Assembly (NCBI RefSeq): GCF_020103725.1
Contig: NZ_JAHXBG010000001.1
Span: 372,001-436,000 of the forward strand
Length of the DNA stretch: 64,000 bases
Direction of reading: 5' to 3'
DNA from: Hyalangium gracile
GTDB taxonomy: Bacteria > Myxococcota > Myxococcia > Myxococcales > Myxococcaceae
Part shown: piece by piece, positions 20,460-30,780 of the stretch
Layout: each line of letters opens with the position of its first letter
Position numbering within the stretch: the stretch's first letter is position 1
Notes under the pieces: generated by a model
The model's database searches: none
What the model was told of the DNA's origin: nothing
What the model saw: the letters and a program-made list of their open reading frames with translations, nothing else
Program-made: the position numbers and the translations under genes

Positions 20460-20825
20460 TCAGGTGAGCGCATGCTGGCTGACGACCTCCAGCAGCGCCT
20501 CCAGGTCCACCGGCTTGCGGACCCACCCGCGCGCGCCCAGCTCCTGGAGGTTGGGGCTGGCGCTGGCCGAGAAGACGACCACCGGCACGGCCGCGAACTG
20601 GGGATGCTTGCGCACCTCCGCCAGGAAGCCGGCGCCATCCAGCACCGGCATCATCATGTCCAGCAGCACCAGCCCGGGCAGCGGGTTGCTGCGGGCCAGC
20701 ACCTCCAGCGCGTTGCGGCCGTTGCTGGCGACGATGACTTCGTAGCCCGCGTCGCGCAGCACGTCGGTGATGGCCTCGCGCAGGTCCGCGTCGTCGTCCA
20801 CCACCAGCAGCGGTCGAGCCTTCAT
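20460..20825 (-). CDS. Single-domain response regulator
   Basis: A 121-residue CheY-like receiver: acidic pocket Asp10-Asp12 (VVDDDAD), phospho-acceptor Asp56 (LVLLDMMMP), Ser/Thr switch in FSAS and Lys104 (VRKPVD). No output domain. Its ATG overlaps the TGA of the upstream hybrid kinase gene by four bases, so the kinase and receiver are translationally coupled and should form a phosphorelay pair. Downstream target unknown. Confidence 0.92.
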   Translation of the reverse strand: MKARPLLVVDDDADLREAITDVLRDAGYEVIVASNGRNALEVLARSNPLPGLVLLDMMMPVLDGAGFLAEVRKHPQFAAVPVVVFSASASPNLQELGARGWVRKPVDLEALLEVVSQHALT

Positions 20826-22444
20826 GCGTGCACCTCCGCCGACTCCAGTGGCAGCTCCAGGGTGAAGGCGGCGCCTCCGCCCGGCCGGGCCTGCGCCCAC
20901 ACGTGCCCGCCGTGAGCTTCCGCCACGCGGCGCGCCAGGTACAGCCCCAAGCCCAGCCCTCCATAGGAGCGCGAGGAGACGGCGCGCTCGAAGCGCTCGA
21001 AGATGCGCTCGAGCTGCTCCGGCGGAATGCCGATGCCCCGGTCCCCCACCTCCACGCGTGCCACGCCTCCAGCGCCTGTCACCCGCACCTCCACCGGCTG
21101 TCCCGAGCCGAACTTGAGCGCGTTGCTCAGCAGGCTCGACACCGCCTGGTCCACGCGCAGCCTATCCCACTGGCCGTACAGGCCGGGGCGCGCTTCGAGG
21201 CGGACCTCGCAGCGCGCCCCCTGGGCCTCCGCGGCGTGCCGGTCCACCACCTCCGCCACCAGCTCCCCCAGGTCCACGCGCTCCGGCTGCAGCAGCATCT
21301 GCCCGCTGGACAGCCGCGACACGTCCAGCAGCGCCTCCACCAGCGTGCCCAGGCGCCGCACCTGGCGCTGGCAGCGCTCCAGGCGCTCGGAGAAGTCCGG
21401 CGCGGCGCTGTCCCGCCGGGCCCGCTGGGTGAGCGCGCCCAGCTGCAGCTGCAGCGTGGTGAGCGGGGTGCGCAGCTCGTGGGCCGCCACGGTGAGGAAG
21501 TCGTCGCGCAGGCGCACCGCGTCCTGCATCTCCTGGAAGAGCAGCGCGTTGTCCAGCACCAGCGAGACGCGGCGGGCCAGCTCCTGCGCCATCACCAGGT
21601 CCTCCCTGCCCAGCCGCCTGCGCCCCAGCGTGCCCAGCGCGAGCACCCCCAGCGCCCCCGGGTGGCCCCGCAGCGGCACGTAGAGCGCGGAGCGCAGCCC
21701 CAGCGCGCTGACGAAGCGCTGGTGCGCCGGGTCCTGCGTGAGCTGCGCCTGCCGCTCGGCCACGTCGGCGATCAGCTCGGGCTGCCCGGTGCGCAGCACG
21801 TGCGAGGGCCCGATGGAGGCCTCCGGGCTGCGCCGCGTGCGCGGCTCGTGCTCCAGGCGCTCGGCCTCGGACTTCTCGTGGGCCAGCGCCGCCAGCCGCA
21901 GGCTGTCGCCCTCCTCGCACAGGAAGATGGCGCAGCAGTCGGCCAGCGTGGGGATGGGCAGCCGCACCAGCCGGGCCAGCCACTGCTCGAAGTCCATGGG
22001 CGCGGTGAGCACCTCGCCCACCCGGGCCAGCAGCGCCCGCTCCATCTCCGCCCGCACTCTGGCCCGCCGCGCCTCCGCCTCGGCCAGCTCCCGGGTGACG
22101 GCCGCCGCCAGCCGGGCGATGCGGTCCTTGGGGAAATAGTCCCGCGCCCCCGCCCGCATCATCTCCAAGCCCTCCTGCTCTCCCACCGTCCCGGAGACGA
22201 TGAGCAGCGGAATGTCCAGGCCCGTCTCGTGGAGCACCCGCAGCGCCTCGGGCGCGCTGAAGACGGGCAGCCGGAAGTCGGAGAGGATGACGTCCCAGTC
22301 CCGCCCCCGCAGGGCCTCGCGCATCTCCTCCTGCGTCTCCACCCGGAGCATCTCCGGCGCGAACCCGCCACGCCGCAGCTCATGCTCCACCAGCATGAAG
22401 TCTTCCGGGTCGTCCTCCACCACCAGCGCCCGGAGCGGTTTCAT
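20822..22444 (-). CDS. Receiver-GAF-histidine kinase
   Basis: A 540-residue soluble kinase. Receiver domain 1-120 (Glu10/Asp11, phospho-acceptor Asp56 in VILSDFRLP, Lys106), GAF-like sensor ~125-305, HisKA with phospho-accepting His322 in VAAHELRTPLT, and HATPase_c with N-box NALKFG, G1 DRGIGIP and G2 GGLGLGLYLA. No membrane segments, so the signal is intracellular or comes through the receiver. ATG 22444 is preceded by GGGAGGCG. It is coupled to the single-domain receiver gene. The architecture closely resembles the PAS-GAF kinase at 57727, including the ERFERAVS...YGGLGLGLY segment, suggesting paralogy. Confidence 0.92.
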   Translation of the reverse strand: MKPLRALVVEDDPEDFMLVEHELRRGGFAPEMLRVETQEEMREALRGRDWDVILSDFRLPVFSAPEALRVLHETGLDIPLLIVSGTVGEQEGLEMMRAGARDYFPKDRIARLAAAVTRELAEAEARRARVRAEMERALLARVGEVLTAPMDFEQWLARLVRLPIPTLADCCAIFLCEEGDSLRLAALAHEKSEAERLEHEPRTRRSPEASIGPSHVLRTGQPELIADVAERQAQLTQDPAHQRFVSALGLRSALYVPLRGHPGALGVLALGTLGRRRLGREDLVMAQELARRVSLVLDNALLFQEMQDAVRLRDDFLTVAAHELRTPLTTLQLQLGALTQRARRDSAAPDFSERLERCQRQVRRLGTLVEALLDVSRLSSGQMLLQPERVDLGELVAEVVDRHAAEAQGARCEVRLEARPGLYGQWDRLRVDQAVSSLLSNALKFGSGQPVEVRVTGAGGVARVEVGDRGIGIPPEQLERIFERFERAVSSRSYGGLGLGLYLARRVAEAHGGHVWAQARPGGGAAFTLELPLESAEVHA

Positions 22445-23259: not shown

Positions 23260-23940
23260 GTGCTGTCCGTGAACGACCGACCTTCCCTGGACGCCGATGG
23301 CGTGTCTTCGCTCCGAGAGCGCTACCTGGCCGCCCAGCTCGCGGGGGACCGTCGTGAGGCGCTGCGCCTGCTGGTGGATGAGGGCCTGCTGCGCGGCATC
23401 CCCCTGCAGGACATCCACCTCAAGGTCATCCAATCGGCGCAGTACGAGATCGGCCGGCTCTGGCAGGAGAACCGCATCTCCGTGGCGCAGGAGCACCTGG
23501 CCACGGCCATCTCCCAGCTCGCGCTCTCGCACCTCTACCGCCACCTGCCGAGGGATCCGTCCAACGGCAAGGTCGTGATGATGTCGTGCGTGGAGGGCGA
23601 GCTGCACGAGGTGGGCGCGCGCATGGCCAGCGACTTCCTGGAGATGGCGGGCTTCGACGTGCGTTTTCTGGGTGCCAACGTTCCCACGGACCACCTGGAG
23701 CGCATGGTGCGCGAGCAGACGCCGGACCTGCTCGCCCTCTCCGTGACGATGACGTACCACCTGCCCGCGCTGCGCGCCGCCGTGGACCGCGTGCGCGCGG
23801 TGGCGCCCCGGCTCCACATCGCCGTGGGCGGGCTGGCCTTCACCTGGGCGTCGGGCGTGGAGAATGACCTGAACGTCTCCTTCCATGGTAGGGATGCGCG
23901 CGAACTGGTCGCCGCGGCCTGCCGCATCCTCGGAGTTTGA
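23260..23940 (+). CDS. Standalone cobalamin-binding sensor of CarH type
   Basis: A 226-residue protein with a helical cap domain followed by a B12-binding Rossmann-like domain. The cap contains W-x9-EH (LWQENRISVAQEH), the signature that packs against the adenosyl group in CarH/LitR photoreceptors. The Rossmann part has E-x-H-x2-G (VEGELHEVGARM), the lower-ligand His motif, then SVTMTYHLPALRAAV and a GGLAF turn. No MerR DNA-binding domain is present, so output must pass to partners. The residue after the Trp is Gln, where TtCarH has the His that forms the light adduct. GTG 23260 has GGAG 10 nt upstream. It is the first gene of a four-gene operon with an unknown helical protein and two hybrid kinases. 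Confidence 0.85.
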   Translation: MLSVNDRPSLDADGVSSLRERYLAAQLAGDRREALRLLVDEGLLRGIPLQDIHLKVIQSAQYEIGRLWQENRISVAQEHLATAISQLALSHLYRHLPRDPSNGKVVMMSCVEGELHEVGARMASDFLEMAGFDVRFLGANVPTDHLERMVREQTPDLLALSVTMTYHLPALRAAVDRVRAVAPRLHIAVGGLAFTWASGVENDLNVSFHGRDARELVAAACRILGV

Positions 23941-23948
23941 GTCCCCGC

Positions 23949-24659
23949 ATGGAAACGCTCAGCCACCAGCTCGAGGCGCGCGCCGACCGGCTCGCCCGCT
24001 CTTCCGTGGAGTGGATGTACCAGGACCCCTTCTGGGAGGCGCGCTATGGCGCCGAGCGGGCCCGGCGCTTCGGAGGCGAGGACGCGCAATTCCACGTGCG
24101 CTACCTGGTGCAGTCGCTGGCGGAGCAGCGCCCCTCGGTGATGGAGGGCTACGCCACGTGGCTGCGCACGCTGCTGGCCTCGCGCGGCATGTGCACGCTC
24201 CACCTGGATCAGAACTTCGCCGGGCTCCAGTCCGCGCTGGCCGCCGAGGGCTTCACGCAAGGCTCACAGGCCCACGACTACGTCCAGGCGGCCCGCGCCG
24301 CGCTGCGCTACACGACCGAGCCCGCGCGCACCCTGCAGCAGCGGGCCCCGGAGCTGGCGCGCCGCGCCGCCCAGGAGCTGCACGCGGAGGTGCCCGCCGA
24401 GCTCCACCGCCGGCTGGAGGAGGAGCTGCTGCTGCACCTCTCCTACCTGGAGGACGCGGTGGGGCTGGGGCGCCCGGAGTTCCTCGCGCGGCACCTCGAG
24501 TGGTACGCGGGCTTCTGGCCCCTGCGCCAGCTGGGCGCGCTCCCCTTCCCCCGGCTGCTGGCGGCCCTGGAGGCGGCGCTGAGCGCTGGCCTCGAGGCCC
24601 ATGAGGCAGTCACGGCCGTGCTCGTCGCGGCACGCCCCCCCAAGGAGAAGTCCTCATGA
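23949..24659 (+). CDS. Internally duplicated all-helical protein of the B12-sensor operon
   Basis: About 236 residues, helical, no family recognised. Two ~50-residue repeats align without gaps: residues ~49-98 and ~163-212 share H-x2-YL-x7-RP-x8-W at identical spacing. This indicates an internal duplication, perhaps of a four-helix (globin-like or bilin/heme-type) sensor fold. The His at the start of each repeat is a candidate ligand position, but this is speculation. ATG 23949 lies 8 nt after the B12-gene stop; TTG 23937 overlapping that stop is an alternative. The 3' end overlaps the next kinase by ATGA, so it is part of the same translational unit. Confidence 0.6.
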   Translation: METLSHQLEARADRLARSSVEWMYQDPFWEARYGAERARRFGGEDAQFHVRYLVQSLAEQRPSVMEGYATWLRTLLASRGMCTLHLDQNFAGLQSALAAEGFTQGSQAHDYVQAARAALRYTTEPARTLQQRAPELARRAAQELHAEVPAELHRRLEEELLLHLSYLEDAVGLGRPEFLARHLEWYAGFWPLRQLGALPFPRLLAALEAALSAGLEAHEAVTAVLVAARPPKEKSS

Positions 24660-26704
24660 TGATGCCTCCCCCTGTCGCGCATCAGCTCGACGAGCTGAGC
24701 CGCGAGGTGGCGCTCGTCTGCGACGCCTCCGGCACCATCACCTGGGCGGACCTGCGGGCCGAGAACGTCCTCGCGGCCCAGCGCGGGCAGAAGCTGCGCG
24801 CCCTGGCCGCCCAGGGCACCGAGGAGAAGGTGGACCGGCTGCTCTTGCAGGCGCGGGACGAGAAGGTGGTGGGCTGGGAGCTCATCCTCTGCCGCGACGG
24901 CCAGAAGCCCACCACCTTCGCCTTCTCCGCCCAGCCGAGGGACGGGCACCTGGTGCTGGTGGGCAGCCTGGTGCCGGAGGACTACGGCGCGGCGCTGGCC
25001 CAGGTGAGCTCCACCCTGAGCGAGCTGTCCGCGCTCCACCGCGAGACGGAGCGCCAGCAGCGCGAGCTGCACCGGCGCGCCGAGGAGCTGCAGCGCGTCA
25101 ACCGGGACCTGGAGGAGTCCAACCGCGGCGTGCGCAGCCTCCACGCCGCCCTGGACGAGAAGGCCGAGAGCCTCCAGCGCGCCGCCGAGGTGAAGAGCCG
25201 CGTGGTGGCCAACGTCAGCCACGAGTTCCGCACCCCGCTGCACTCCATCCTCGGCCTGTCCAAGGTGCTGCTCAACCCGCTCAACGGCCCGCTGTCCGCC
25301 GAGCAGGAGAAGCAGGTCCAGTTCATCCGCACCTCGGCCGAGGCCCTCTACGAGCTGGTGAACGACTTGCTCGACCTGTCCAAGGCGGAGGCCGGCAAGG
25401 CGGTGCTGCGCCCCAGCCGCTTCGCCACCGACGAGTTCATGCGCGGCCTGCGAGGCATGATGCGGCCGCTGGTGCCGCTGGAGTCCTCGGTGGAACTCTT
25501 CTGCCCGGAGCCGCCCGCGGGCCTGGAGCTGGAGACGGACGAGGCCAAGCTCAGCCAGGTGCTGCGCAACCTGGTCTCCAACGCGGTGAAGTTCACCGAG
25601 CGCGGCAACATCACCGTCACGCTCACCCAGGGCCCGCGCGACACCGTCTCCTTCGCCGTGAAGGACACCGGCATCGGCATCCCCCCGGAGTACCACGAGC
25701 GCATCTTCGAGGAGTTCGTCCAGGTGGACACACCCATCCACAAGAAGGTGAAGGGCACGGGCCTGGGCCTGCCGCTGGCGCGGCGCCTGACGGAGATGCT
25801 GGGCGGCTCGCTCACCGTCCAGAGCGCGCCGGGCCAGGGCGCCACCTTCACCGTCACCATCCCGCGCGTGCACCCGGAGGTGAAGGAGATGACGGGGCTG
25901 ACCGAGCGCGCCGAGAAGCTGGATCCGGCCAAGGCGCCCGTGCTGGTGCTGGAGGACGACCGGCAGACGCTCTTCCTCTACGAGAAGTACCTGGAGCGCT
26001 CCGGCTTCCAGGTGCTCCCGGTGCGCTCGGTGGAGGAGGCGCGCCGCACCGTGCAGCGGGTGCGCCCGGCCGCCATGGTGCTGGACGTGATGCTGGAGGG
26101 CGAGACGAGCTGGAACTTCCTGGCGGAGATGAAGACGAAGGAGGAGACGCGGGACATCCCCATCCTCGTCGTCACCATCACGGACCGCGAGCAGAAGGCG
26201 CGCGCCCTGGGCGCCGACGAGTTCTGGCTCAAGCCGGTGGAGGCCACCCAGCTCTTGCGCAAGCTGGGCGAGCTGGCCCACCGCGGCCCCGTGGAGCGCA
26301 TCCTCATCATCGACGACGACGAGGTGCACCGCTACCTGCTCAAGCAGCTGCTCAAGGACACGCCCTATATGTTGATGGAGGCCACCAGCGGTAAGGAAGG
26401 CATCCGCCTGGCCCGGGAGAAGGCCCCGCACCTCATCTTCCTGGACTTCCTGCTGCCGGAGATGACGGCCTTCGACGTGCTGGACGAGCTGAAGGCGGAC
26501 CCGCGCACGCGCGACATCCCCGTCATCCTCCAGACGGCCCACGAGCTGAAGGAGGACGAGCGCTCGCGGCTGGCCCGGGAGACGGCGGCCATCCTCGCCA
26601 AGCACACGCTGAGCCGCGAGGTGGCCATCGCCCGCATCCGTGACGCGTTGTCCAAGGCGGGCCTGGGTTCCCGTGTGGAGGAGCGGGAGGTGCGCCGTGG
26701 TTGA
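24656..26704 (+). CDS. Hybrid histidine kinase with two C-terminal receivers
   Basis: A 682-residue soluble protein. The N-terminal PAS-like domain (~10-110) and a coiled coil (~115-180) precede HisKA with His189 in VSHEFRTPLHSI. HATPase_c follows (NAVKFTERG, DTGIGIP, GTGLGLPLA), then two receivers: one with Asp in AAMVLDVMLEG and Lys in FWLKPV, one with Asp in LIFLDFLLPE and Lys in LAKHT. It should autophosphorylate and pass phosphate to its own receivers or to the next kinase. ATG 24656 overlaps the preceding stop by four bases. No membrane span, so the input is probably the B12 sensor and helical protein encoded just upstream. Confidence 0.92.
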   Translation: MMMPPPVAHQLDELSREVALVCDASGTITWADLRAENVLAAQRGQKLRALAAQGTEEKVDRLLLQARDEKVVGWELILCRDGQKPTTFAFSAQPRDGHLVLVGSLVPEDYGAALAQVSSTLSELSALHRETERQQRELHRRAEELQRVNRDLEESNRGVRSLHAALDEKAESLQRAAEVKSRVVANVSHEFRTPLHSILGLSKVLLNPLNGPLSAEQEKQVQFIRTSAEALYELVNDLLDLSKAEAGKAVLRPSRFATDEFMRGLRGMMRPLVPLESSVELFCPEPPAGLELETDEAKLSQVLRNLVSNAVKFTERGNITVTLTQGPRDTVSFAVKDTGIGIPPEYHERIFEEFVQVDTPIHKKVKGTGLGLPLARRLTEMLGGSLTVQSAPGQGATFTVTIPRVHPEVKEMTGLTERAEKLDPAKAPVLVLEDDRQTLFLYEKYLERSGFQVLPVRSVEEARRTVQRVRPAAMVLDVMLEGETSWNFLAEMKTKEETRDIPILVVTITDREQKARALGADEFWLKPVEATQLLRKLGELAHRGPVERILIIDDDEVHRYLLKQLLKDTPYMLMEATSGKEGIRLAREKAPHLIFLDFLLPEMTAFDVLDELKADPRTRDIPVILQTAHELKEDERSRLARETAAILAKHTLSREVAIARIRDALSKAGLGSRVEEREVRRG

Positions 26705-28229
26705 GCCTCGAACCGGTGCCATCCTCGTCGTCAACGACGACGACGCCAGCCGCTACATGGTGGGCCGCATCCTGGAGATGGCGGGCCACCGCGTCGTGGA
26801 GGCCGCCACGGGAGGCGACGCGCTGCGCCTGGCCCAGCAGCTGCGCCCCGACCTCATCGTCCTGGACGTGAAGCTGCCGGACATCAGCGGCTACGAGGTG
26901 GCCGCGCGCCTGCGCTCCAGCCAGGAGACGGCCTCCATCTCGGTGATGCACACCTCGGCCACCTTCGTCACCGCGGACAAGCGGGTGCTCGGCCTGGACA
27001 GCGGCGCGGACGCCTACCTCACCGAGCCCTTCGAGCCCGCCGAGCTCATCGCCACGGTGAAGAGCCTGCTGCGCCTGCGCCACGCCGAGCGCGAGCTGCG
27101 CCAGCGCGCCAACCAGCTCGCCGAGGCGGACCGGCGCAAGGACGAGTTCCTCGCCATGCTCGCGCACGAGCTGCGCAACCCCCTGGCCGCCATCATGACG
27201 GCCATCGGCATCCTCGAGCGCAAGCCCACGGATGACTCCAAGGAGGTGCGCATGCGCTCCATCATCCAGCGCCAGACGCACCACCTGGCCCGGCTGGTGG
27301 ATGACCTGCTGGACGTCAGCCGCATCACCCGGGGCAAGGTGGAGCTGCGCCGCGAGCGGGTGGACCTGGTCGCCGTGCTCCAGCAGGTGCTCGCCCTCAT
27401 GCAGCCGGTGGCCGACGGGCGCAAGCTGCGCATGGACAGCGCGCTGCCGGACCGGCCCCTGTGGCTGAACGCGGACGCCACCCGCCTGGAGCAGGTCTTC
27501 ACCAACCTGCTGGACAACGCCACCAAGTACACGGACGCCGGCGGCTCCATCTGCGTGCAGGCCTTCCAGGAGGGCGTGGACGGCGGCGCCCGGGCGGTGG
27601 TGCGCATCGCCGACACGGGCATCGGCATCCCCGCGCACAAGCTGCCCTCCATCTTCGAGCTGTTCGCCCAGGTGGACGAGTCCCTGGAGCGCACCCGCGG
27701 CGGCCTGGGCATCGGGCTGACGCTGGTGCGCAACCTGGTGGAGATGCACGGCGGCGTGGTGTTCGCCACCAGCGCGGGCGAGGGGCGCGGCAGCGAGTTC
27801 GTCGTGAAGCTGCCCATGACGATGCCCCTGCCGGCGCTGGCCCGAACCACCCTGGCCCTGGACGACAAGCCGCGCCAGCGCCGCATCCTCCTGGTGGAGG
27901 ACAACTCGGACGCGCGTCAGGCGCTCAAGGACCTGCTGGAGCTGTGGGGGCACCAGGTGGAGGTGGCCCACGACGGCATGGACGGGGTGGCCATGGCCCT
28001 GGAGGGCCGGCCGGACCTGGCGCTGGTGGACATCGGCTTGCCGGGGTTGGACGGCTACCGCGTGGCGCAGGAGCTGCGGGCGCGGGTGGGCGAGGAGATC
28101 CGACTGGTGGCCATCACCGGCTATGGCGGGCCCGAGGACCGGCACCGGGCGATCCAGGCGGGCTTCGACCACCACCTGGTCAAGCCCGTGAAGCCGGACG
28201 AGCTGGACCGGCTCCTCACGGACCTCTGA
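26697..28229 (+). CDS. Receiver-histidine kinase-receiver protein
   Basis: A 510-residue soluble protein: N-terminal receiver (VVNDDDASRYM, LIVLDVKLPD), HisKA with LAHELRNPLAA, HATPase_c (NATKYTDAG, DTGIGIP, GGLGIGLTLV) and a C-terminal receiver (VEDNSDARQAL, LALVDIGLPG, LVKPVKPDE). In the first receiver the usually conserved Lys before Pro is Glu (YLTEPFEP), so its switch may be unusual. GTG 26697 has GGGAGG about 7 nt upstream and overlaps the previous stop by 8 bases, making this the last gene of the coupled B12-sensor operon. It is convergent with the XRE gene. Confidence 0.92.
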   Translation: MVEPRTGAILVVNDDDASRYMVGRILEMAGHRVVEAATGGDALRLAQQLRPDLIVLDVKLPDISGYEVAARLRSSQETASISVMHTSATFVTADKRVLGLDSGADAYLTEPFEPAELIATVKSLLRLRHAERELRQRANQLAEADRRKDEFLAMLAHELRNPLAAIMTAIGILERKPTDDSKEVRMRSIIQRQTHHLARLVDDLLDVSRITRGKVELRRERVDLVAVLQQVLALMQPVADGRKLRMDSALPDRPLWLNADATRLEQVFTNLLDNATKYTDAGGSICVQAFQEGVDGGARAVVRIADTGIGIPAHKLPSIFELFAQVDESLERTRGGLGIGLTLVRNLVEMHGGVVFATSAGEGRGSEFVVKLPMTMPLPALARTTLALDDKPRQRRILLVEDNSDARQALKDLLELWGHQVEVAHDGMDGVAMALEGRPDLALVDIGLPGLDGYRVAQELRARVGEEIRLVAITGYGGPEDRHRAIQAGFDHHLVKPVKPDELDRLLTDL

Positions 28230-28238
28230 GGAGTACGC

Positions 28239-28607
28239 TCAGCGCCGCAGCAGCGCCTTGGCCACCAGCCCCAGCAGCTTGATGTGAGAGGAGTCCAGCT
28301 GACGCAGGCTGCGCAGCAGCCGGCGAATCTCCGGCCTCTCACTGGGCGCGGAGGGTGCCTCGGCCGGCGCGCTCCGCGGGCTGGGGCCGTGCGGCGTGAG
28401 GCCCAGCGGCTCGTCCGAGGAGACGTTCAGCTCGTGGCAGAGCTTGAGGAGCGTCTGCACGCTGGGGAGCATGCCTCCGCGCTCGAGACGACCGTACACC
28501 TCCGTCGCCACGTCGATGCGCTCCGCCACGTCTGCTTGCGTGAGCTCCAGGCGCATCCGGGCGGCACGCGCCGCAGCGCCGATAGTCGATGCGAGTTTTT
28601 TGTCCAT
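28239..28607 (-). CDS. XRE-family helix-turn-helix regulator
   Basis: A 122-residue protein. Residues ~8-65 form an HTH_3/XRE domain (AARAARMRLELTQADVAERIDVATEVYGRLERGGMLPSVQTLLKLCHELNVS). A Pro/Ser-rich linker and a C-terminal helix (EIRRLLRSLRQLDSSHIKLLGLVAKALLRR) follow. ATG 28607 has AGGA 5 nt upstream; longer frames lack HTH similarity. It is tail-to-tail with the B12-sensor operon and head-to-head, across a 505-bp gap, with the chemoreceptor gene. Targets unknown. Confidence 0.85.
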   Translation of the reverse strand: MDKKLASTIGAAARAARMRLELTQADVAERIDVATEVYGRLERGGMLPSVQTLLKLCHELNVSSDEPLGLTPHGPSPRSAPAEAPSAPSERPEIRRLLRSLRQLDSSHIKLLGLVAKALLRR

Positions 28608-29112
28608 GCTTCCTACCCGACCCGAAAGGTGCGGTTGACGGCTTAGGACGTATGGAGGCAGACAGACAGAACTTGCCGGGTAGATCTGCGCGTCTTCACC
28701 TGACAGGTCGCGAACTCCAGCAGGATGGCGCAGCGCGGCGTCAGCACTCCGTGAGCGACTCGTCAAGTCGGGTCCCCGGACATGACGGTGTAGGACAGCT
28801 GCGGATCATCCTCCCCCGGGTCCGATTTCCCTCGGAGCCGGGCCCTCCTTCGGAGCGCCGCCGCCGGGCCGCCCAACCCAGGGTGGCTCGAGCCACGGCT
28901 GTAGCGGACGGGCCGTGAGCGTCGGATCCACGCTCGAATCCAACGAGGTCTTGGACGCGAATCCGACCCAGCAGGTTGCCCCCGCGGGGCCCCCAGAAGG
29001 CGTCCTGGAGGCTGTCCCGAATCCCTCCCGAAGGCTCCCCCACGCTCGCGGGCCAGGGCGGGCGACCGACCGAGCACCCTCCCGAGGCCAGAGTGCCCTA
29101 GGCTTGGAGGTG
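28608..29112. other. 505-bp divergent intergenic region
   Basis: No supported gene. The rightward frame is open from 28915 into the chemoreceptor but has Pro/Arg-rich content without family similarity, so it is treated as leader. It contains a 14-bp perfect palindrome at 28883 and a TAGGCT hexamer 8 nt before the chemoreceptor ATG. Confidence 0.45.
28883..28896. promoter_or_regulatory. 14-bp perfect palindrome GTGGCTCGAGCCAC
   Basis: It lies between the XRE regulator and chemoreceptor genes. Size and symmetry fit an XRE-type operator, but no second copy was found in the window and chance is not excluded in GC-rich DNA. Confidence 0.3.
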
Positions 29113-30780
29113 ATGGCGCTGGCACTGAGACACCGCAGTCTTCTGACGAAGTTGTACATCGCGATGGGGGTGGTGGCGCTGCCGCTGCTCCTGCTGCAGC
29201 CGCTGTACGTGCTCCCGGCCATACGGGCGCAGCTCGAGGAGGACCGCTCGCGTGGACTGCGGCAGGTGGTGGAGACGGCGTACGGCGTGCTGGAGACCTA
29301 CGAGGCCCGGGTGCGTGCCGGCGAGCTGACGACGGCGCAGGCCCAGACCGAGGCGGCGCGGCTGCTGCAGCAGCTGCGCTACGGGCGCGTGGAGTACTTC
29401 TGGATCAATGACTTGTCGACGCGGCTGGTGATGCACCCGTACCTGCCGGCGATGCTGGGCAAGGACCTGACGGGGTATCGCGACGCGGACGGCAAGGCCG
29501 TCTTCGTGGACATCGTCAAGCTGGCGCGAGACAAGGGCGAGGGCTTCATCCCCTACCTGGCCACGCGCCCCGGAGAGACGACGCCGCTGCCCAAGGAGTC
29601 CTACGTGAAGCTCTTCGCTCCGTGGGGCTGGGTGGTGGGCACGGGCGTGTACGTGGAGGACATCGACAAGGAGATGCTGGGGCTGCAGCAGCGGCTGCTG
29701 CTGGCGGTGTGCGCGACGCTGGTGCTGGCGCTGCTGGTGGGAGCGGCCTTCTCGCGGGCGGTGGTGAAGCCGGTGCGCGGGCTGGCCGCCGCCGCGCGCA
29801 GCGTGGAGAAGGGAGACTTCAGCGTCACGGTGCCGGTGCAGTCGCAGGACGAGCTGGGCAAGCTGGGGCACGCCTTCAACACCATGGTGTACGGCGTGCG
29901 GGACATGGTGAAGGGCCTGGCGGACGTGGCGATCGCCACCGTGGCGGACGCCGACCGCATCCGGCGCTCGGCGGACGCGCTGTCCAAGGCCACGCGCGAG
30001 CAGTCCGACCAGCTCCAGCAGCTGGCGGAGTCCGTCCAGCAGATGAGCCGGGGCCTCTCCCAGGACGCCGAGCAGGCGCTGACCACCGCCGAGGTGGCCG
30101 CGAGCAACGGCCGGATGGCGGAGGAGGGCGGCGACGCGGTGAAGCACGCCTCGCGGAAGATCTCGGAGATCGTCGAGGTGGTGCAGAAGTCGGAGGAGAT
30201 GGTGGTGCGGCTGCAGACGTCGGGCGCGGCGGTGGCGCAGATGCTCCAGCTCATCCAGGACGTCTCCAACGAGACGAACGTGCTGGCGGTGAACACGGCC
30301 ATCGAGGCGGCGCGCGCGGGCGAGCACGGCAAGGGCTTCGGCGTGGTGGCCAACGAGGTGCGCAAGCTGGCTCACCGCTCGCGCGAGGCGGTGGAGCAGA
30401 TTGAGCACCTGCTGAAGAAGAACCAGGAGGACACCTCCAACGCGGCGGCGCTGATGCGGCAGGGCACCCTGCGCGTGGAGGAGGGCATGCAGCTGTCCTC
30501 CACCACGGCGGAGGCGCTCTCGCGCATCGTCACCGGCACGCGGGAGATCCACCTGCGCGTGGGTCAGCTCGCCGTGGACGGGGCCCGGCAGTCCAGCTCG
30601 GGAGAGACCATCGCCGAGCGCATCAAGACGCTGTCGAACAACTCCCTGGAGGCGGTGCAGGGGGTGAACCACATCGCCCAGGCGGTGGTGGACCTGCACG
30701 CGCAGGCGCAGCAGCTCTGGGCGCTGGCGGCGCGCTTCTCCCCCGAGCACCGGGAGCCGAAGGGCGCGGAGAAGAGCTGA
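29113..30780 (+). CDS. Methyl-accepting chemotaxis protein with single Cache domain
   Basis: A 555-residue receptor: TM1 (~12-31), an extracytoplasmic sCache-type domain (~35-190) with LRYGRVEYFWINDLSTRLVMHPYLPAMLGKDL and a WGWVVGTGVY ending, TM2 (~194-215), HAMP, and a signalling domain with the hairpin tip DVSNETNVLAVNTAIEAARA followed by GFGVVANEVRKLA. It should sense a small ligand and control a CheA/CheW array; no che genes are nearby. The ATG at 29113 has GGAGG only 3 nt upstream but TAGGCT 8 nt upstream, so a leaderless start is likely. It is convergent with the acyl-CoA ligase gene. Confidence 0.93.
   Translation: MALALRHRSLLTKLYIAMGVVALPLLLLQPLYVLPAIRAQLEEDRSRGLRQVVETAYGVLETYEARVRAGELTTAQAQTEAARLLQQLRYGRVEYFWINDLSTRLVMHPYLPAMLGKDLTGYRDADGKAVFVDIVKLARDKGEGFIPYLATRPGETTPLPKESYVKLFAPWGWVVGTGVYVEDIDKEMLGLQQRLLLAVCATLVLALLVGAAFSRAVVKPVRGLAAAARSVEKGDFSVTVPVQSQDELGKLGHAFNTMVYGVRDMVKGLADVAIATVADADRIRRSADALSKATREQSDQLQQLAESVQQMSRGLSQDAEQALTTAEVAASNGRMAEEGGDAVKHASRKISEIVEVVQKSEEMVVRLQTSGAAVAQMLQLIQDVSNETNVLAVNTAIEAARAGEHGKGFGVVANEVRKLAHRSREAVEQIEHLLKKNQEDTSNAAALMRQGTLRVEEGMQLSSTTAEALSRIVTGTREIHLRVGQLAVDGARQSSSGETIAERIKTLSNNSLEAVQGVNHIAQAVVDLHAQAQQLWALAARFSPEHREPKGAEKS

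Follow-up and report, generated by a model that had tools for sequence, protein, structure and literature searches.

How does a cobalamin-binding protein that lacks a DNA-binding domain pass on its signal, and what would that signal be? The question is raised by a locus of Hyalangium gracile, a soil myxobacterium of the Myxococcaceae with an 11.7 Mb genome (assembly GCF_020103725.1, contig NZ_JAHXBG010000001.1). The window we analysed is a stretch of 64,000 nucleotides, positions 372,001 to 436,000 of the forward strand, and coordinates of the locus are counted from its first letter. Four co-directional open reading frames (ORFs) on the + strand, A, B, C and D, occupy positions 23260-28229, with an 8-nucleotide gap between A and B and overlaps of 4 nucleotides between B and C and of 8 between C and D. 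We propose that A and B probably form a B12/bilin photosensor, comparable to the photocobilins but split over two polypeptides, which controls the hybrid kinases C and D in trans. The broader idea, that throughout the Myxococcota a B12/biliverdin photoreceptor made of two proteins, its globin duplicated, drives in trans a phosphorelay of two kinases dedicated to it, is put forward tentatively, as a conjecture with a real, if not quite even, chance of being right.

A cobalamin-binding domain close to those of photocobilins

The product of gene A matches two Pfam models, B12-binding (PF02310, 2.6e-20) and B12-binding_2 (PF02607, 1.7e-13), and the Pfam scan detects no MerR domain in it. A preliminary description of the locus, made from the sequence of the window, had presented A as a standalone 'CarH-type' cobalamin-binding protein with two characteristic motifs. 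The standalone architecture holds, and the motifs are found as W68-x9-E78H79 and E114-x-H116-x2-G119; moreover, the published light signature is complete in A, with its four elements GxxW, EH, GxxH and GxxxP. The label 'CarH-type' fares less well. In a PDB search, A ranked the photocobilin SasPcob first (8j2x, 7.6e-29), followed by 8jbs (2.0e-26), AbPcob (8j2y, 7.6e-24) and TtCarH (5c8a, 1.2e-10). Identity reaches 40% with the cobalamin-binding domain (CBD) of SasPcob and 34-35% with AbPcob and 8jbs, against 26.5% with the genome's own CarH. Judged by these comparisons, A appears closest to a photocobilin, and CarH is not its nearest kind.

Two other assignments were rejected. That A is a CarH deprived of its DNA-binding domain is contradicted by its score with the NCBIfam CarH model (63.4 bits for a cut-off of 400), by a Gln at the position of His132 and by the low identity to the resident CarH. 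As to a corrinoid carrier serving a methyltransferase, A falls far under the cut-off of every corrinoid-protein model listed in NCBIfam, and no methyltransferase is present among the neighbours scanned.

The residue at the position of TtCarH His132, the histidine of the light adduct, deserves a closer look. The genome's own CarH has His at this position, whereas A has Gln (Q69), as do all A proteins compared. The preliminary description, which had correctly noticed this Gln, took it to mean that the photochemistry may differ or that the protein may sense B12 only. SasPcob, however, is photoactive and is reported to have Gln at the same position (PMC11796333); Q69 is therefore no argument against photochemistry, and a SasPcob-like chemistry is predicted instead. 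The light state of SasPcob is described as water- or hydroxide-ligated rather than bis-His (PMC10979010). A further residue, H145, aligns with SasPcob H137, described as a putative salt-bridge partner of the biliverdin propionate in the other monomer (PMC10979010). The position is occupied by Ser in one relative (L028), by Ala in AbPcob and by Glu in the genome's own CarH.

A tandem globin-like protein with a putative bilin pocket

Gene B, an 'unknown helical protein' in the preliminary description, matches nothing in Pfam or NCBIfam and nothing of use in PHROGs, and a single-sequence PDB search retrieves nothing (best E = 1). Membership of a catalogued family was thus rejected, the SasPcob globin being reached only by profile. 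A profile of 13 B proteins matches the globin domain of SasPcob (8j2x) with E = 4.4e-4, through the second half of B. Internal comparison with hhalign aligns repeat 1 with repeat 2 at a score of 65 (E = 1.7e-11), above the maxima of 18.8 in 100 column shuffles and of 50.9 in 60 block shuffles, in which short motifs are retained. Both halves also align with the SasPcob globin, repeat 1 with a score of 29.7 (100 shuffles, maximum 20.4) and repeat 2 with 37.7 (100 shuffles, maximum 18.4). On these profile comparisons, and with an RGMC motif in the first repeat, B is recognisable as a predicted globin-type bilin protein made of two degenerate repeats.

Two residues of the first repeat, D45 and W71, align with SasPcob Asp270 and Trp296, which are reported to hold or contact biliverdin (PMC10979010); the register that pairs D45 with Asp270 is obtained by lengthening the repeat 1 alignment by five ungapped residues by eye. 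Both residues are strictly conserved in the B sequences counted, which range from Hyalangium to Nannocystis and Thermomicrobiales. Because the partner of the B12 protein would be a bilin globin, the sensor is likely to have two chromophores.

B is found beside bilin genes at two loci where A was not detected: a bilin reductase at L056 and a heme oxygenase at L065. B may act without a B12 partner there.

Two hybrid kinases that travel with A and B

The Pfam domains of C (HisKA, HATPase and two receivers) and of D (receiver, HisKA, HATPase and receiver) bear out the earlier reading of two soluble hybrid kinases, and neither protein has a membrane-like stretch: the maximal Kyte-Doolittle values over 19 residues are 1.18 and 1.28, versus 2.76 for a chemoreceptor (MCP) used as control. 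The catalytic residues are well kept. In C, the receiver Asp is present in 35/35 and 36/36 covering sequences; in D, the HisKA His and the first receiver Asp are present in 36/36, and the second receiver Asp in 34/36 (Asn in L045, Ala in L027). ATP-site residues are retained wherever the C and D sequences span them. The first receiver of D has a peculiarity: its conserved Lys is replaced by Gln (30 sequences) or Glu (6) in 36/36 covering sequences, and its first acidic-pocket residue is Asn, which suggests an atypical receiver. No HPt domain and no DNA-binding output regulator was found in the products of the four genes. The N-terminal region of C is conserved from Hyalangium to Nannocystis and looks PAS-like by eye.

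The question arises as to whether these kinases serve A and B or just lie next to them. We examined a set of 59 genomes, the window's included, of which 13 are B-positive and 46 B-negative. In all 12 other B-positive genomes, A, B, C and D are adjacent and in the order of the window, so that the association holds in related genomes, the lack of which would have refuted the preliminary description. In the window as in these 12 relatives, A and B are encoded by distinct ORFs, each A having its own stop. A profile of the N-terminal region of C, with at most 58 candidates scored per genome, finds an end-to-end match in 13/13 B-positive and in 0/46 B-negative genomes (E at most 4e-69); in the latter it catches only the coiled coil.

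Database loci extend this picture. Among 39 named loci, retrieved by a scan with two conserved peptides that favours close relatives, A adjoins B in 37, and in 32 the four genes form one cluster; L032 duplicates L018, L062 duplicates L029, and some other named loci duplicate genomes analysed here. Four arrangements occur: A-B-C-D, A-B-reductase-C-D, D-C divergent from heme oxygenase-A-B, and C-D-A-B. Seven loci fall short of the full set: four contigs have no kinases (three from Thermomicrobiales, one from Kofleriaceae), L068 is a contig end, and two are the Myxococcus loci L034 and L048. A linkage that is rearranged yet retained, together with exclusive co-occurrence, constitutes our main evidence that C and D serve A and B. 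One of the loci (L042, BNCN01000009.1), titled Comamonas sp. KCTC 72670, bears a Myxococcus-type locus, and is probably a mislabelled genome.

Supply of the presumed chromophores

The window's genome encodes two heme oxygenases and a PduO-type cobalamin adenosyltransferase (PF01923). It contains neither a CobA/BtuR-type adenosyltransferase nor a bilin reductase (PF05996), the latter being present in 1 of the 59 genomes. Biliverdin and adenosylcobalamin (AdoCbl) are therefore the expected ligands.

Genes for bilin synthesis are also part of some loci. Heme oxygenase lies directly before A in seven Nannocystis and Kofleriaceae loci (L057-L061, L067 and L069; confirmed by Pfam in L058 and L061, by tblastn only in the other five). 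In L029, also recorded as L062, a ferredoxin-dependent bilin reductase is inserted between B and C (PF05996, 1.9e-30). On two Thermomicrobiaceae contigs, A and B are followed by genes for an ABM-domain protein and then a bilin reductase, the reductase being identified by Pfam in L064 and by tblastn in L063. The small ABM-domain protein of these metagenome-assembled genomes (L063:1285-1599 and L064:6170-6475) could be a non-canonical heme-degrading enzyme replacing heme oxygenase. In L029, a shortened heme-oxygenase-like frame of 112 residues (985-1323) stands directly before A; it has the N- and C-terminal parts, its middle is missing by eye, and a full heme oxygenase is encoded elsewhere in that genome.

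Beyond the loci, we compared the distribution of heme oxygenase with that of B. In the first set, co-occurrence could not be taken as proof, being confounded by phytochrome, present in 12 of the 13 B-positive genomes; 54 further genomes resolved this. B was sought in genomes of the window's family by profile, with 14 candidates scored per genome, and 8 further genomes of the family were added to the B-negative side. Among the B-positive family genomes, 58 have B matched nearly end to end and one, G105, lacks the middle of the match; G082, from another family and matched over 49 profile positions, was excluded from the counts. Heme oxygenase is found in 59/59 B-positive genomes of the family (13 + 46), versus 7/54 B-negative genomes examined. 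Phytochrome is present in 42 of these 59 (12 + 30) and confounds the link, but among phytochrome-free genomes the contrast persists: 17/17 B-positive genomes have heme oxygenase, versus 3/50 B-negative ones (G019, G022 and G111; Fisher's exact test, 3e-13, for genomes that are not independent and with phylogeny uncorrected). In several genomes, one type of heme oxygenase is separated by about 1 kb from the PHY domain of a phytochrome (G002:C282:25048-27124 and G005:C1:8567665-8569741).

Myxococcus xanthus offers a case in point. Strain AM003 has the A-B-C-D locus (L040), and its genome yields two matches to heme oxygenase but none to phytochrome. According to a 2025 review, M. xanthus lacks bacteriophytochromes, and fruiting of Stigmatella requires light (PMC12288465).

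A possible mechanism and its rivals

The residues that would contact the chromophores are kept in both proteins: W68, the EH motif, H116 and H145 in A, and D45 and W71 in B. For chromophore binding, contact between A and B, light response, kinase control and output, we infer the following course of events. A would bind AdoCbl in the base-off, His116-on form, as a dimer in the dark, and B would hold biliverdin against the corrin edge of A, most likely in its first globin repeat. By analogy with SasPcob, the Co-C bond in A would be broken by green light directly, or by red light via the biliverdin of B. Its rupture would loosen the A dimer and alter the A-B surface, so that the A-B complex, acting as a soluble sensor in trans, would set the autokinase/phosphatase balance of C, in whichever direction, via its N-terminal region and coiled coil. 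The receivers of C and D would then relay phosphate to an output whose gene lies elsewhere. The earlier suggestion, a phosphorelay responsive to B12 and light and not a direct repressor, agrees with the evidence, and the association of the four genes is conserved; what has to be revised is the sensor, which would have two chromophores rather than one.

Three other scenarios are considered. A might sense the AdoCbl level or green light on its own and control the kinases, B being a structural adaptor with a vestigial bilin pocket. AbPcob sets a precedent, retaining a globin yet binding biliverdin poorly (PMC10979010), and C82 of B and H145 of A do vary. This poor binder, however, is reported to have His at the Asp position (PMC10979010), whereas D45 and W71 are invariant in all B sequences that cover them; bilin-synthesis genes travel with some loci, and B is accompanied by heme oxygenase also in genomes that lack phytochrome. 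Because of the conserved pocket residues and of the links with heme oxygenase and bilin reductase, we consider sensing of B12 only, as also envisaged in the preliminary description, to be unlikely. Alternatively, A and B might monitor or buffer cobalamin and the biliverdin of heme turnover, and the kinases would respond to tetrapyrrole state rather than to light. The neighbouring heme oxygenase and bilin reductase genes would suit such a role, as would the photoinert behaviour reported for isolated BBAG-2 proteins (PMC10151467), but the adenosyl-pocket signature of A is one that predicted light responses in the CBDs tested in PMC11796333, and its best solved relative is a photoreceptor. We regard this scenario as distinctly unlikely.

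Lastly, the kinases could be mere neighbours, A and B working alone or with another partner while C and D sense something else. Thermomicrobiales do have A and B without C and D, and myxobacteria possess very many kinases. Against this, C and D stay with A and B in four gene orders and in several families, and the N-terminal region of C is present exactly when B is, which makes simple neighbourhood the least probable of the three scenarios, and a very improbable one.

Several observations nevertheless weigh against a split photosensor acting on C and D. Some concern the nature of A and B. The second-ranking structure in the PDB search with A, 8jbs, is entitled "putative cobalamin binding protein" and scores between two photocobilins; to our knowledge it is a CBD protein that is not known as a photocobilin. 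A small tree of CBDs has weak support and is not counted as proof. H145 is replaced in 1 of 13 A proteins and C82 in 5 of 45 B sequences. The similarity of B to SasPcob is weak, and passes through the half without D45 and W71. In the Archangium-group genome G105, B is one open frame (G105:C1:2717950-2718504) in which profile positions 59-106, with W71 and RGMC, are unmatched, a possible loss of the bilin pocket. Other observations concern the partnership with the kinases: Pfam recognises no domain in the N-terminus of C; A-B or B occurs without C and D in Thermomicrobiales and on one Kofleriaceae contig, although one kinase-free contig, L063, is only 3.7 kb long, so that the absence there says little; and Myxococcus L034 lacks C, as does L048 along with most of D. 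These two loci retain A and B (with a shortened A match in L048) and have no runs of N, the losses being natural ones. Finally, isolated BBAG-2 holoproteins are reported to be photoinert (PMC10151467), which is also how SasPcob with biliverdin alone is described (PMC10979010), and SasPcob without biliverdin is reported to show no light-driven change of oligomer (PMC11796333), which makes the exit of the signal from A-B hard to assign.

If a split B12/bilin photosensor does control C and D, the locus would provide broad visible (green and red) light sensing even in phytochrome-free species such as M. xanthus, a standard laboratory species whose strain AM003 bears the locus and in which the hypothesis is testable. 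A sensor split by nature and equipped with its own kinases would reveal a route by which B12/bilin light signals reach two-component systems, and the A-B pair would be a separately tunable two-component part for optogenetics. In Stigmatella, the pair would be a candidate second input to light-dependent development.

Layout of the locus

The positions of the genes and of the residues discussed above are collected in Table 1. The most likely start of B is ATG 23949, since the relatives L019 and L022 offer no other start and the alternative, TTG 23937, would overlap A. A start of D at GTG 26640, possible in the window, was rejected, as a stop lies inside that stretch in 3 of 18 relatives (L023, L043 and L047). 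Rfam gives no cobalamin riboswitch match within the window.

Table 1. Genes, domains and residues of the A-B-C-D locus, in window coordinates
Feature	Position	Strand	Remarks
Gene A	GTG 23260..TGA 23940	+	226 aa; standalone AdoCbl-binding domain, photocobilin-like CBD without MerR domain
W68 (SasPcob W61) and Q69 (TtCarH H132 position; Gln in SasPcob)	23461..23466	+	W and Q in 13/13 A proteins
E78-H79, EH motif of the adenosyl pocket	23491..23496	+	13/13 A proteins
E-L-H-E-V-G motif; H116 as lower cobalt ligand (SasPcob H108)	23599..23616	+	H116 in 13/13
H145, aligned with SasPcob H137	23692..23694	+	12/13 A proteins
Gene B	ATG 23949..TGA 24659	+	236 aa; predicted tandem globin-like bilin protein, BBAG-2/photoglobin relative
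Globin-like repeat 1 (approximate), bearing the putative bilin-pocket residues	23952..24242	+	hhalign versus repeat 2 and SasPcob globin
D45, aligned with SasPcob Asp270 (key biliverdin ligand)	24081..24083	+	46/46 B sequences, two of them identical
W71, aligned with SasPcob Trp296	24159..24161	+	45/45 B sequences covering the position
R79-G80-M81-C82 (RGMC motif)	24183..24194	+	G and M 45/45; R 42/45; C 40/45, otherwise Ser or Ala
Globin-like repeat 2 (approximate)	24315..24584	+	hhalign versus SasPcob globin; in the window, Glu replaces the Asp
Gene C	ATG 24656..TGA 26704	+	682 aa; soluble hybrid kinase: N-terminal region, coiled coil, HisKA, HATPase, REC, REC
HisKA of C, phospho-acceptor in SHEFRTPL	25193..25396	+	His in 36/36 C sequences
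Gene D	GTG 26697..TGA 28229	+	510 aa; soluble hybrid kinase REC-HisKA-HATPase-REC

Upstream of the locus, on the - strand, a REC-GAF-HisKA-HATPase protein and a lone receiver are encoded at 20460-22444; among the loci compared, a close syntenic match of this kinase is found only in Hyalangium versicolor (L018/L032). Downstream lie an XRE-type regulator (28239-28766, -) and an sCache_2/HAMP chemoreceptor (28915-30780, +), which are syntenic in many Myxococcaceae loci and were not found in the Nannocystis, Kofleriaceae and Polyangiaceae loci. It is possible that they represent the output, or that they are just neighbours.

Comparison with known systems

The characterisation of photocobilins dates from 2024; the fused output tested then was a diguanylate cyclase. 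As described in PMC10979010 (SasPcob, 8j2w/8j2x; AbDPcob, 8j2y), they resemble A in having an AdoCbl domain with the W/EH and ExH motifs. At the sequence level, SasPcob and A+B have in common the Gln at the H132 position and equivalents of His137, Asp270 and Trp296. The photocobilins of that paper consist of one polypeptide each, either standalone or fused to an enzyme, whereas in the present locus the B12 part and the bilin part have a gene of their own, the globin is repeated in tandem and a pair of hybrid histidine kinases are the partners. As A and B are separate ORFs, we therefore speak of a split, photocobilin-like pair and not of a member of the photocobilins.

The pairing of A with B is not new, since it has been published for the BBAG-2 globins. 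In Myxococcales these globins, which have the RGMC motif, are encoded next to B12-binding genes, and two of them, once expressed, contained biliverdin (Rockwell et al. 2023, PMC10151467). According to the same paper, B12-binding proteins and heme oxygenase accompany the Myxococcales globins of the BBAG-2 clade, and Myxococcales globins without the pre-2 bilin reductase are placed in this clade. The window's locus is alike in the gene pairing, in the RGMC motif and in having heme oxygenase in the genome; the pre-2 bilin reductase of the BBAG-2 cluster is not in the window's genome. The kinase partnership seems, provisionally, to be new. The term 'histidine kinase' is absent from both photocobilin papers (PMC10979010 and PMC11796333) and from the main text of PMC10151467, in which 'kinase' occurs in a reference only and 'tandem' does not occur. 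We found no paper linking such a B12/bilin-globin pair to histidine kinases, the photoglobin paper of Schneider et al. 2022 lying outside the comparison.

CarH, represented by TtCarH and by the genome's own CarA/CarH (G000:C6), shares with A the AdoCbl-binding fold and the light signature. It differs by its MerR DNA-binding domain, by its His at position 132 and by its distance in sequence. H-NOX and NosP heme sensors act on hybrid kinases in trans, and offer the closest functional parallel known to us, in that the gene for a soluble protein with a cofactor adjoins that of a hybrid kinase; their fold, ligand and signal differ, and no homology is claimed. Among these systems, the A-B sensor pair would work like a photocobilin, and fits a BBAG-2 globin with its B12 partner, minus the reductase.

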